Below, piece by piece: positions 856-5,573 of a stretch of 5,721 nt of DNA (position 1 is the first letter of the stretch; every line of letters begins with the position of its first letter). This stretch comes from JAUWCW01 sp030609125 [NCBI: Candidatus Rokuibacteriota bacterium] (GTDB lineage Bacteria; JAUVQV01). The stretch is from the NCBI GenBank assembly GCA_030609125.1, contig JAUWCW010000147.1:1-5721 (forward strand), given 5' to 3'. The position numbers and the translations under genes are program-made. The notes beneath the pieces are model-generated. The model searched no databases, was not told the DNA's origin, and worked only from the letters and a program-made list of their open reading frames with translations.

Positions 856-1656
856 TCAGACATCCTCGTACTTCTCGCGCCTCCAGCGGAAGGGGAGATC
901 GACGATCTCCCCCGGCTCGGTGATGTCATAGAGGGCCTCGAAGGCCTTCCGGATAACCGCTCTCTGCTGCGCCACGTTGGAGGGCTCCCCCAGCGGGTGG
1001 CCGAAGGGCCAGCGGAGGTGAACGGTCCTGGGCGGCTTGACCTTCTCCGAGTAGCTCCGGACGATGGAAACGCCGATGGTCGGCACCCCCCGCCTCTCGA
1101 TCTCACGCTGGACCAGTCCGACCGACTGGTTGCAGATCGCTCAGCCGGGGGTGAGCAGGACGATGTCGACGCCGTCCTTCACGAGCGCCTCGGCGACGCG
1201 CGGGCCCGTGTCCTCGATGAGGGTGGAAATGTAGGGGCCGTCGATGTGTCCCATGAAACTGTAGTGCCGCTCCGAGAGGCCGCCTATGGCTCCCTCGGCG
1301 ACCATCTCGCGGAGACGGTCCAGGGGAAAGACGATGTTGATGTCGCGGTCCGCGTCGGAGTGGTCATAGTAGTCGTGAGTGATCATAAGGGTGGACGGGG
1401 GCCGGGAGGCGTCGATCACGCGGAAGGAGGGGTCGCCGTTGGGGTCCTTCATATCGAAGGGCTTCTGGTCCCGGTGGTGGACCCCGGCGGTTGTGACGAC
1501 GGCGACGGTGGCCTCCCGCAGGGGCTTTTCAACAGGCGTCCACGGAACGTCCTCCGACTCCCAGGGGTGGTAGGAGTCGACGAGCCGCCTGCCGAGGGAG
1601 GGAAAGGCGGCGATGACCTTGGCAATGGCCCGGTTCTTCAGTCTCATGAACGACAC
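856..1656 (-). CDS. GrdB/PrdB-like selenoprotein (glycine/sarcosine/betaine reductase selenoprotein B family), UGA read as Sec
   Basis: Two same-frame segments, 1656-1144 and 1140-856, are separated only by a TGA at 1143-1141. Read as selenocysteine, it gives a 266-residue protein with the motif LLTPG-U-AICNQSVGL, that is U172-x-x-C175. The sequence after U (QREIERRGVPTIGVSIV) continues the same Rossmann-like fold, as in PrdB and GrdB, whose redox centre is a Sec or Cys at this point. Full-length GrdB and PrdB belong to amino-acid reductases of anaerobes. This shorter stand-alone family is of unknown substrate, and no GrdA, GrdC or PrdA partner is visible. A SECIS-like hairpin follows the UGA. 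I chose the GTG start at 1656 because GGGAAAGGAG lies 4 bases upstream; ATG 1647 (three codons later) is 13 bases from it. The gene lies 22 bases after the FixH-like gene and probably shares its transcript. An ordinary caller would split it into 171- and about 76-residue pieces. Confidence 0.9.
1108..1135 (-). promoter_or_regulatory. Bacterial SECIS-like hairpin directing Sec insertion
   Basis: In the mRNA sense, 10 nt after the UGA, ACCAGUC (1130-1124) pairs perfectly with GACUGGU (1118-1112) around a five-base GGUCG loop. A lower helix of CUG (1135-1133) with CAG (1110-1108) extends it across a small asymmetric internal loop. The apical loop begins with G and lies 17 nt after the UGA, within the spacing and loop rules known for bacterial SECIS elements. 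The GGUC loop resembles the SelB-binding loop of E. coli fdhF. The hairpin sits inside the coding sequence, as bacterial SECIS elements must. The alternative is a chance hairpin in GC-rich coding DNA, but its placement makes that unlikely. Confidence 0.8.
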
Positions 1657-1660
1657 GGCA

Positions 1661-1670
1661 CTCCTTTCCC
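1661..1670 (-). promoter_or_regulatory. Ribosome binding site deciding the GTG start of the selenoprotein
   Basis: The mRNA reads GGGAAAGGAG followed by TGCC and then GTG. The Shine-Dalgarno core AGGAG is 4 bases from GTG 1656 and 13 bases from ATG 1647, so GTG is preferred although its spacing is short. The site lies in the 22-base gap after the TAG stop of the upstream gene. Confidence 0.6.
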
Positions 1671-3760: not shown

Positions 3761-4369
3761 TTATCTCGGCCCGAGTGTCTCCTCTCCCCCCGTGGGGGAG
3801 AGGCCGGGTAAGGGGGAGCCCGCCTGCTCCGCGATGACGATCGGCATCTGCACTTTCAGTCTCCGGTCGGAGAAAGAGTCCCTGATGAGCGTCTCAAAAG
3901 TGTAGTTTCCCGCGGGCAGCCCCTCGGTGTCGTAGGTGAAGGAGACCATGAACTCCATGACGGGTCGGCGGGACTCCATCTCCAGGCGGTCGAAGTCGCG
4001 CTGTCCCCCGAGGATCTTTCCCGACTCATCGAGGAGGGTGAAGTCCAGTGCAAGGCTTATGGAGTAGACGCCGTCGGCCTTCCGGATCGTGTGTCCCACG
4101 GGTTCGGCGTAGATGTGGACCGGTTCTCCCGGGCGGTAGCGATTGTCTCCCCTCGGCGCGTAGACGCCGAAGGAGGTGGGTTCCTCTTCGACGAGCAGGG
4201 CCCGCCGGAGGGCCATCGTCTCCATCCGCCGCCAGATTTCCAGCTCGGCGGCCTTGTGCTCCTCGTAGGTCTCGAGGCCGGGGCCCCCTCCCTCCTCCTC
4301 CGCCGACCCGGCAGCGGCGGGAAGGAACGTGGCCAGCCCGAACAGGGCGAGAAGAGCGATTCGTTTCAT
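3761..4369 (-). CDS. Exported protein of unknown function
   Basis: This is a 202-residue protein starting at ATG 4369. It has a clear Sec signal peptide (MKR, then a Leu/Ala/Phe core, likely cleaved after AGSA at residue 23). GAGG lies 10 bases upstream of the ATG; an upstream in-frame start at 4477 would place 36 Arg/Gly-rich residues before the signal and is rejected. After a short charged helix (about 35-63) comes an all-beta region with FGVYAPRGDNRYRPGEPVHI (67-86), LDFTLLDESGKILGGQRDF, and an AGNYTFETLIRDSFSDRRL (153-171) stretch. This looks like an Ig-like or C2-like sandwich in the periplasm. I recognise no named family. Residues 183-197 (AGSPLPGLSPTGGEETL) are encoded by repeat copy B, and the stop lies 18 bases past it. 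The native C-terminus probably ended near IVIAEQ. The gene is divergent from the QTMAN-like gene. Confidence 0.78.
   Translation of the reverse strand: MKRIALLALFGLATFLPAAAGSAEEEGGGPGLETYEEHKAAELEIWRRMETMALRRALLVEEEPTSFGVYAPRGDNRYRPGEPVHIYAEPVGHTIRKADGVYSISLALDFTLLDESGKILGGQRDFDRLEMESRRPVMEFMVSFTYDTEGLPAGNYTFETLIRDSFSDRRLKVQMPIVIAEQAGSPLPGLSPTGGEETLGPR
3779..3822. repeat. GC-rich palindromic repeat, copy B (overlaps the 3' end of a gene)
   Basis: CCTCTCCCCC (3781-3790) and GGGGGAGAGG (3794-3803) form a perfect 10-bp inverted repeat with a 3-base centre, followed by GCCGGGTAAGGGGGAGCCCG. It is a second, more intact copy of the element at 3716-3758, in the same orientation 61 bases away. It lies inside the coding sequence of the exported protein and encodes its tail. 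A short palindrome, CTCGG-C-CCGAG (3765-3775), sits between the two copies. Confidence 0.75.
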
Positions 4370-4412
4370 GGTCTGTCTTCCTCTTTTCCCTACCTTAACG
4401 CCCTCCCTGCCG

Positions 4413-4445
4413 CCGTCAAGCCGGGCGCTCCCGCCGCCTTGACGG
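4413..4445. promoter_or_regulatory. Inverted repeat with outward TTGACGG arms in the divergent intergenic region
   Basis: CCGTCAAG (4413-4420) and CTTGACGG (4438-4445) are an exact 8-bp inverted repeat with a 17-base centre that itself holds CGGG/CCCG (4422-4425, 4430-4433). Each arm reads TTGACG, a near-consensus -35, pointing toward its own gene. To the right, CATTGT lies at 17-base spacing (4462-4467). To the left, TAAGGT lies at 16-base spacing (minus strand 4397-4392). Both -10 candidates match only three of six bases. The element could be a paired divergent promoter, an operator, or a hairpin. The symmetry is certain; the function is inferred. Confidence 0.45.
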
Positions 4446-4475
4446 AATAACCGGCCTGGGGCATTGTTCGGGCCC

Positions 4476-5573
4476 ATGAGAGTACTCTTCGTCGAGCCCT
4501 TCTACGGCGGGTCCCACCGCCTCTTCGCGGACCGCTTCGCCGCCCTCTCCTCCCACGACGTCGATCTTCTCACCCTCCCCTCCAGCTTCTGGAAGTGGAG
4601 GATGCGGGGGGCCCACCTCTCGCTTGCCGAAAAGATCAGGGCCCGGGCGGGGCAAGTCGAGTGCCTGCTGACGACGGACATGGTCAGCCTGGCGGAGCTG
4701 GTGGCGGTCGTCCCGGAAATCTCCCGCTGTCCCCGCGTGGTTTACTTCCACGAGAACCAGCTGAGCTACCCGGTGCCGAAAGGCGAGGCGCCCGACGTGC
4801 ACTTCGGCTTCACCAACATATCGACGGCCCTCGCCGCCGATATGCTGGTCTTTAACTCCGAGTTTCACCGGGAGGAGTTCACCGGCGGCGTGGAGAGGTT
4901 TCTCAAGGCCATGCCCGACCACCGGCCGCGGGGCCTGGAGGAGCTGCTCCGCCCCAGGGGGAGGGTGGTCTACCCGGGAGTGGACTGCGGGGAGCTGAAA
5001 GGACTGCGTCCGGAGCGGACCGGCAGGAAGCCCCTCACCATCCTCTGGAACCATCGCTGGGAGTTCGACAAGCAGCCCGAGGTCTTCTTCGGCGCCCTGG
5101 GCAGGCTCGCCGGTGAAGGGCTCGACTTCCGGGTGCACGTGCTGGGAGAGAACTTCCAGGTTCGGCCGAAGCCCTTTCTCGAGGCGCGGGAGCTTCTGGG
5201 GGAGAAGCTGCTCACCTTCGGGTACCTCGAGGAGAGGGCCGGCTACATCCGGGCCCTCTGGGATTCGGACGTGGTCGTGTCGACGGCGGTCCAGGAGTTC
5301 TACGGCATCGCCGTCATGGAAGCCGCCTGCTGCGGATGCCGCCCCCTTCTGCCGCGGCGGCTGGTCTACCCCGAGCTTTACGGGGAGGAGTTCCTCTACG
5401 GGGAGGAGGGTGAGCTCGAGGAGAAACTGCGCGTCTTCATCGAGAGGGGGACAAAGCCTGAAGAGTGGGAAGATGGAGTGCGGGCCGGCATCGAAAAAGA
5501 GCACGACGTCCGCCGGAGCGCCGCCCGCCTCGACTCCCTGATCACAGAGACCATGCGACGAAGAAGTATCTGA
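4476..5573 (+). CDS. DUF3524/QTMAN-family glycosyltransferase (tRNA-queuosine mannosyltransferase homologue)
   Basis: This is a 365-residue protein with the N-terminal signature of the GTDC1/QTMAN family: VEPFYGGSH (6-14), FWKWRMRGAHLS (38-49), a TDMVSLAELVA stretch (67-77), and VYFHENQLSYPVP (89-101). FNSEFHREEF (126-135) and AMPDHRPRGLEELL (145-158) follow. The C-terminal half is a GT-B, GT4-like domain with LWNHRWEFDKQPEVFF (190-205) and STAVQEFYGIAVMEAACCG (269-287), which includes the E-x7-E donor-binding motif (E274, E282). The animal enzyme adds mannose from GDP-mannose to queuosine at tRNA-Asp position 34. A bacterial enzyme of this length probably acts similarly in the cytosol, but donor and acceptor are not shown by sequence. 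The start at ATG 4476 gives the family-typical MRVLFVEPFYGG; an in-frame TTG at 4464 adds four residues and is less likely. No queuosine biosynthesis gene is visible nearby. Confidence 0.9.
   Translation: MRVLFVEPFYGGSHRLFADRFAALSSHDVDLLTLPSSFWKWRMRGAHLSLAEKIRARAGQVECLLTTDMVSLAELVAVVPEISRCPRVVYFHENQLSYPVPKGEAPDVHFGFTNISTALAADMLVFNSEFHREEFTGGVERFLKAMPDHRPRGLEELLRPRGRVVYPGVDCGELKGLRPERTGRKPLTILWNHRWEFDKQPEVFFGALGRLAGEGLDFRVHVLGENFQVRPKPFLEARELLGEKLLTFGYLEERAGYIRALWDSDVVVSTAVQEFYGIAVMEAACCGCRPLLPRRLVYPELYGEEFLYGEEGELEEKLRVFIERGTKPEEWEDGVRAGIEKEHDVRRSAARLDSLITETMRRRSI

Follow-up and report, generated by a model that had tools for sequence, protein, structure and literature searches.

A minus-strand gene at positions 856–1656 of the window (the whole 5,721-nucleotide stretch of DNA analysed here) raises the question of whether a reading frame interrupted by an in-frame TGA encodes one selenoprotein or two separate ORFs and, if one, whether the product is the PrdB subunit of D-proline reductase or a protein with another function. 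The frame runs from a GTG at 1656–1654 through a single internal TGA at 1143–1141 to a terminal TGA at 858–856, which makes 266 codons plus the stop and a product of 266 residues; the strand, frame and coordinates given in an initial annotation of this DNA, with the single TGA at residue 172, were all reproduced. A ribosome-binding-site-like AAGGAG (1661–1666, minus strand), recognised by inspection of the sequence, sits four bases 5′ of the GTG, and translation may start there or at an ATG three codons further on at 1647. The internal TGA (1141–1143) is a predicted selenocysteine (Sec) codon lying in the motif U-A-I-C, a UxxC with Cys175. As had been anticipated, annotators following standard rules would break the gene in two, since a standard ORF listing splits the frame into pieces of 171 aa (1656–1141) and 76 aa (1086–856). 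The sequence past the TGA had also been described as protein-like; indeed, the 94 downstream residues, scanned alone, match positions 151–236 of the PrdB profile (E 1.6e-12). At the level of sequence the gene is confirmed as encoding one putative read-through protein rather than two ORFs, with a frame beyond what chance would give.

Conservation of the TGA and its decoding context

A contig scan with a ten-sequence alignment, using search patterns that did not include the Sec codon, gave 445 relatives, and the best 80 were kept. At the site of residue 172, which the initial annotation had proposed to compare among homologues for Cys or Sec, the codon is the Sec codon TGA in 79 of these 80 and GGA in one (L108), a figure that describes near kin because the best 80 are the closest relatives. 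By title most of them belong to Nitrospirota or deltaproteobacterial lineages, and several phyla are represented. The relatives continue beyond the TGA and their downstream sequence is conserved, so homologues ending at this codon, an outcome for which the initial annotation had allowed, were not what was found. Cys175 is invariant in all 73 rows of an alignment made up of the window protein and 72 of the 80 loci. Across the domain, 43 of 386 sampled genomes gave matches at E ≤ 1e-10, part of which are GrdB-type, and among the matches listed from this sample 52 of 59 stretches contain an in-frame TGA, the position of which is not given there.

The redox pair is not universal, since Gly replaces Sec in L108 and a further relative, L024 (1501–2178), has neither Sec nor Cys175. 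In L108 the GGA lies around position 6502 and the SECIS hairpin sequence is still intact, which suggests that the GGA arose recently or is an error of sequencing. L024 has Gly at both positions (TPGGPLGHQ), and the SelA match in its genome is weak (24.1 bits).

A SECIS-like hairpin with a 7-base-pair stem and a 5-base loop (1112–1130, minus strand) starts 10 bases 3′ of the TGA. The 48 bases from the TGA were aligned for 80 sequences, 78 of them distinct, comprising the window and the 79 loci other than L108. In the seven-pair stem (columns 14–20 with 26–32) 98.9% of cells are paired, and in a possible loop pair (21–24) 74.4%; stem and loop pair together reach 95.8%, as against 15–47% when the partner is slid by one to three columns. 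Cells changed on both sides number 40, compared with a shuffled mean of 9.3, and none of 500 shuffles reached this count, while two of the five covariation measures were not above the shuffles: 421 of the 500 reached the number of double-changed pairs and 499 that of additional pair types. Codons +5 and +9 read CAG/CTG in 33 of the 80 loci, CGG/CTG in 25 (a G-U pair), CAA/TTG in 21 and CAG/CTT in one, and RNAalifold, unprompted, gives the identical stem. Moreover, third positions, which are silent sites, are constrained in the hairpin region: third-position entropy is 0.76 at Gly180, compared with 1.77–1.95 for the remaining seven glycines whose conservation across the 73 rows is 95% or higher, and 0.10 at Leu181, compared with 1.76 for Leu146 in the same rows. 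The loop G (column 22) is invariant and fits the description of the bacterial SECIS in the relevant excerpt of PMC1088965. Taken singly, the window's 42-base hairpin fold has an unremarkable energy (z −1.11; 32 of 200 shuffles do as well), and an Rfam search of the window gave nothing up to E 1. The comparative evidence supports the assignment of the element downstream of the TGA as a putative SECIS-like hairpin.

All four genes for which the initial annotation had proposed a search are present in the window's genome (92.4% complete, 376 contigs). The selB gene (314.5 bits, over cut-off) adjoins selA (E 3.4e-158) on contig C310; tRNA-Sec (selC) scores 67.9 bits against a gathering score of 47 on contig C359; and selD (362.8 bits; contig C159, L134) carries an in-frame TGA of its own. 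Thus selB and selC, on which the earlier case had been made to depend, are both there. The tRNA-Sec is over the gathering score in all 11 genomes tested (that of the window plus ten more that carry a clade member), and SelA is present in 29 of 30 carrier genomes; it was not found in the carrier G032 (86% complete), whose relative (L031, 609–1298) has an in-frame TGA. With relatives that keep the TGA, a SECIS-like hairpin and the Sec machinery in the genome, the predicted Sec at residue 172 appears well founded.

Comparison with PrdB and GrdB

The kinship with GrdB and PrdB that had been claimed for the protein was recovered. PrdB (TIGR04483) is the best NCBIfam family for the read-through protein (residues 38–260, 197.9 bits, E 1.7e-58), the Pfam GRDB model (PF07355) gives 44.8 bits against a cut-off of 22 through the C-terminal part of the model only, and identity to annotated PrdB is about 39–42%, with the UxxC at the Sec site in common. 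However, the score of about 198 bits is below the PrdB equivalog cut-off of 300, as are those of three other clade members (157.5, 179.3 and 186.3 bits), whereas five plasmid PrdBs score 310–424 bits, all above 300, in a comparison that is partly circular because PrdB names and cut-off may share one model (the prdB annotation that four of the five carry perhaps came from TIGR04483 itself; the fifth is in a record without gene annotation there).

The window protein and PrdB both conserve His60, Asp75, Arg79, His94, Asp105, Asn107 and Arg210. They differ in that His99, His137 and His220 are found in all 83 clade rows (the 73 alignment rows and 10 from sampled genomes, with at least one sequence, L036 and L116, present twice) and in none of six PrdB rows, which have Asn at 99, Gly at 137 and Ala or Ser at 220. 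Among 18 more distant relatives the equivalents of His99, His137 and His220 occur in 9, 2 and 5, respectively, and the position of His220 is His in all three GrdB rows too. Most clade members, unlike PrdB, also have an insertion near 139–140, and the N-terminal 37 residues of the window protein, mostly helical in the model described below, lie outside the PrdB profile match. In a tree, PrdB forms one group (96/80) and the window protein is placed among the rows labelled clade A; the split of clade A from PrdB and GrdB has a support of 83/97, which is below the starred level and not strong, and, with three label changes, the clade A rows do not form a single clean clade. The C-terminal half of GrdB, GrdF and GrdH (PF07355; glycine, sarcosine and betaine reductases), including the Sec loop, is homologous to the window protein, whereas their models span 431–435 positions, compared with its 266 residues.

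The initial annotation had described a form without partner subunits, and none of PrdA, GrdE and GrdA was found in the 92%-complete genome; since this assembly is in 376 contigs, a partner could be missing from the data. The PrdA model (TIGR04480) gave no match there and was over cut-off in none of the 386 genomes and 14 controls, with weak matches in eight, in a sample that held no known PrdA positive by which to judge its sensitivity. PF09338 (GrdE/PrdA type) and GrdA likewise had no match in the window's genome; four of 30 carriers have PF09338, and these four are also the ones with GrdA; among them is one of the 11 clade genomes, G276, which has GrdE- and GrdA-type genes. Three annotated prd clusters have prdA upstream of prdB, with a single small gene separating the two; this arrangement is absent at the window gene. 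By score, partner and pocket residues, all read from sequence, the window protein does not pass as a putative D-proline reductase PrdB.

Other PrdB-like proteins lie close to this form. The alphaproteobacterial proteins annotated as 'glycine/sarcosine/betaine reductase selenoprotein B family protein' (L149 and L150) resemble the window protein in being PrdB-like, in keeping Cys175 and in having no prdA annotated within the 6.5–6.7 kb fetched; they differ in having Cys instead of Sec, and their identity is 28 and 33%. On a Paraclostridium plasmid (L148, 5001–5645) a PrdB-like frame has Cys (TGT) for Sec, and neither prdB nor prdA is annotated in the fetched stretch. The prdB of a Peptoclostridium acidaminophilum plasmid (L143, 5016–5729) scores 310 bits, just above the cut-off, with no prdA annotated within 10.7 kb, and is possibly another solo form that annotation names PrdB.

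Predicted fold and gene neighbourhood

An AlphaFold2 model built with 73 window and locus sequences (mean pLDDT 92.6) shows an N-terminal helical pair (residues 3–17 and 19–28) followed by an alternating α/β domain. Residue 172 lies between strand 165–169 and helix 175–188, with Cys175 at the start of the helix, and His60 is in a short strand (59–61). His94, His137, Sec172 and His220 occupy loops after strands 90–92, 130–135, 165–169 and 210–213, respectively, and in this model they would lie on one active-site edge. A fold search of the PDB gave no match at E ≤ 0.001 and hence no pointer to function. In a second look the best match was MlrC (PDB 7ylq; Z 8.6, rmsd 4.0, 155 aligned), and the other rows (Z of 7.5 or below), many of them unrelated Rossmann-like chains, probably reflect a common arrangement only. 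A profile search of PDB sequences gave three chains up to E 1, namely a designed protein (E 0.00014), one phosphate-loop protein and a construct of a cytochrome; all were taken as unrelated.

Upstream of the selenoprotein gene, on the same strand, are a YtkA-like-domain gene (1679–2503; PF13115, 90.4 bits) at a distance of 22 bases, a gene for a CxxCxxCC protein (2968–2528) and an MgtC gene (3686–3012); the gaps are short, and co-transcription of these four genes is therefore possible. The plus strand encodes a tRNA-queuosine mannosyltransferase N-terminal domain protein (4464–5573; PF12038, 206 bits) and, at 1–831, the thio(seleno)oxazole radical SAM maturase SbtM, which is cut by the contig start, where the window also begins, and matches the C-terminal 271 positions of its model (466 bits, cut-off 350). 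The suggestion that the selenoprotein acts with its redox or metal neighbours in the window was not supported: the six other window proteins gave no tblastn match (E ≤ 1e-3) in 95 relative-carrying loci of 3.3 to 19.9 kb, in all of which a control query was matched, and the SbtM gene is on the opposite strand. An operon with SbtM was rejected because the two genes converge. Linkage to SbtM was also set aside, as SbtM and the selenoprotein lie on different contigs of the related genome G001, the former, over its cut-off, on C305 and the latter on C244; one look at the ORFs beside that SbtM (L151) gave no clear candidate for a precursor peptide.

Among the best 80 of the 445 relatives, an upstream ORF is present at 77 loci and a downstream ORF at 70. 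The 58 upstream ORFs on the same strand, when scanned, included 16 rhodaneses and 7 E1-E2 ATPases, and 7 of the 41 same-strand downstream ORFs have a radical SAM domain. As raw counts, taken without a background rate over lineage-clustered loci that are not independent, a rhodanese cluster lies upstream on the same strand at 16 of the 80 loci (Desulfuromonadales or unassigned deltaproteobacteria by title), a same-strand P-type ATPase is no more than about 0.7 kb away at 12 by ORF clustering (11 upstream, 1 downstream; Desulfobacteraceae, Desulfarculus and an Olavius-associated bacterium among them by title), and 51 loci, some on short contigs, have neither on the same strand. The one ATPase that was typed (L117) is over cut-off for the heavy-metal, copper subfamily, and at the magnetotactic locus L056 a single-domain rhodanese precedes the gene. 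Several ORF clusters on the opposite strand were set aside as apparent shadows of the rhodanese and ATPase genes. No neighbour is common across the lineages compared.

Candidate mechanism and competing readings

The reading that is probable from the sequence is a 266-residue selenoprotein of the PrdB/GrdB superfamily in which UGA172 is read as Sec, working as a one-subunit Sec/Cys reductase for which no PrdA, GrdE or GrdA was found. The sequence evidence supports the superfamily membership, the recoded UGA172 and the predicted Sec/Cys pair; that the protein is a one-subunit reductase is what we infer. In the GrdB and PrdB systems a pyruvoyl partner activates the substrate. A title cited in PMC1088965, as excerpted, names the pyruvoyl group of D-proline reductase. 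Because such a partner was not found here, the substrate should be electrophilic on its own, and amine reduction by the proline/glycine reductase route would not be expected. UGA172 would be read as Sec via the downstream SECIS hairpin by the genome's SelA, SelB, SelD and tRNA-Sec; Sec172 would then attack an already activated electrophilic bond in a small substrate, Cys175 would resolve the selenium adduct to give a Se–S bond, and a dithiol donor would re-reduce that bond. In the model, the clade-specific His99, His137 and His220, together with His60 and His94, which are common to PrdB, probably shape a pocket of the clade's own, and the protein probably does another job than PrdB. A non-amine substrate is thinkable, since an excerpt of PMC10838667 proposes that a GrdB-type protein of Synergistota, where a GrdE homologue is present, attacks the C–F bond of fluoroacetate. 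A hint of sulfane-sulfur or metal-thiol chemistry comes from those lineages in which a rhodanese or P-type ATPase gene is a neighbour; the window has neither.

Other readings fit parts of these data. Standard translation stops at 171 residues and the end codon of the gene is itself TGA, as would be the case if the internal TGA were a genuine stop, a sequencing error or the mark of a decayed gene with a relic frame downstream; however, with the TGA common to 79 of the best 80 relatives from several phyla by title, a conserved downstream protein and a SECIS-like hairpin under silent-site constraint, this is extremely unlikely. Far from probable too, though less remote, is that the protein is the PrdB of a genuine D-proline reductase, with a PrdA that went undetected because the assembly is incomplete. 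The best family match, the identity to annotated PrdB and the shared UxxC all agree with this, as does a PrdA model that had no positive in the sample, but the protein is below the equivalog cut-off that the five plasmid PrdBs pass, its three pocket histidines are unlike PrdB and prdA is not one small gene upstream. PF09338, moreover, is found in four carriers with the window's genome not among them, and PrdA is over cut-off in none of 386 genomes, compared with 43 with PrdB- or GrdB-like matches in an equal-sized sample.

Somewhat less improbable, but still unlikely, is an amine-type or other inactive substrate that a different, unrecognised partner would supply in trans with an activating carbonyl or cofactor. 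GrdB and PrdB both act together with partner subunits, a point also touched on in passages of PMC13188914, and since the neighbour set varies such a partner could be encoded elsewhere; against this, no neighbour recurs across the compared lineages and GrdE/PrdA-type partners were not found in 26 of 30 carriers. An equally doubtful proposal is a copper or sulfane-sulfur stress factor, for example one freeing metal or sulfur from thiol adducts, in place of a metabolic reductase. The same-strand ATPases, with L117 of the copper/heavy-metal type, the upstream rhodanese clusters and, in the window, the upstream genes for YtkA-like and CxxCxxCC proteins speak for it, but the rhodanese and ATPase associations are clustered by lineage, most loci have neither, and the window's own neighbours had no match in the 95 loci. 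A bolder extension of the one-subunit reductase reading, possible but tentative, is that the clade is a separate, widespread family of sediment and groundwater bacteria, misfiled as 'proline reductase' for some twenty years: a single subunit without a pyruvoyl partner, with Sec/Cys in a His-lined, perhaps metal-binding pocket, and with a role in sulfane-sulfur or copper-thiol chemistry and not in the fermentation of amino acids.

To our knowledge, Geobacter uraniumreducens and Anaeromyxobacter dehalogenans are not Stickland fermenters. Both are among the single genomes for which excerpts of PMC1088965, PMC2398784 and PMC1794560 list 'proline reductase' selenoproteins, and the occurrence of a PrdB-like selenoprotein in bacteria of this sort was therefore known already. 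In the same excerpts the UxxC 'PrdB' is a named, abundant selenoprotein class that includes non-clostridial bacteria: the Sargasso Sea data held 42 such genes, making it the third most abundant known selenoprotein family (PMC1088965), and the GOS survey held 235 (PMC2398784). These marine proteins, UxxC-containing and PrdB-like, probably belong by description to the same broad group as the window protein; they differ in being labelled proline reductase, with no PrdA test in the excerpted parts of those surveys. The open-access literature, as far as its excerpts go, yielded no paper testing PrdB-like selenoproteins for PrdA and no statement that score, partner and pocket set such proteins apart from PrdB, and this separation of the clade seems to be the new element. 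The genomes sampled here suggest that many PrdB-like selenoproteins are without PrdA; if so, the metabolic label is wrong for these and an abundant selenoenzyme is without a known substrate. The clade is represented in Geothermobacter hydrogeniphilus HR-1 and Pelovirga terrestris M08fum, both recorded under a strain name and neither flagged as a MAG. One locus (L059) carries two PrdB-like genes on one strand, near 4308–5165 and 7260; both have TGA as the codon for the Sec position, and they are separated by a gene of the pyridine-nucleotide-disulfide-oxidoreductase type.
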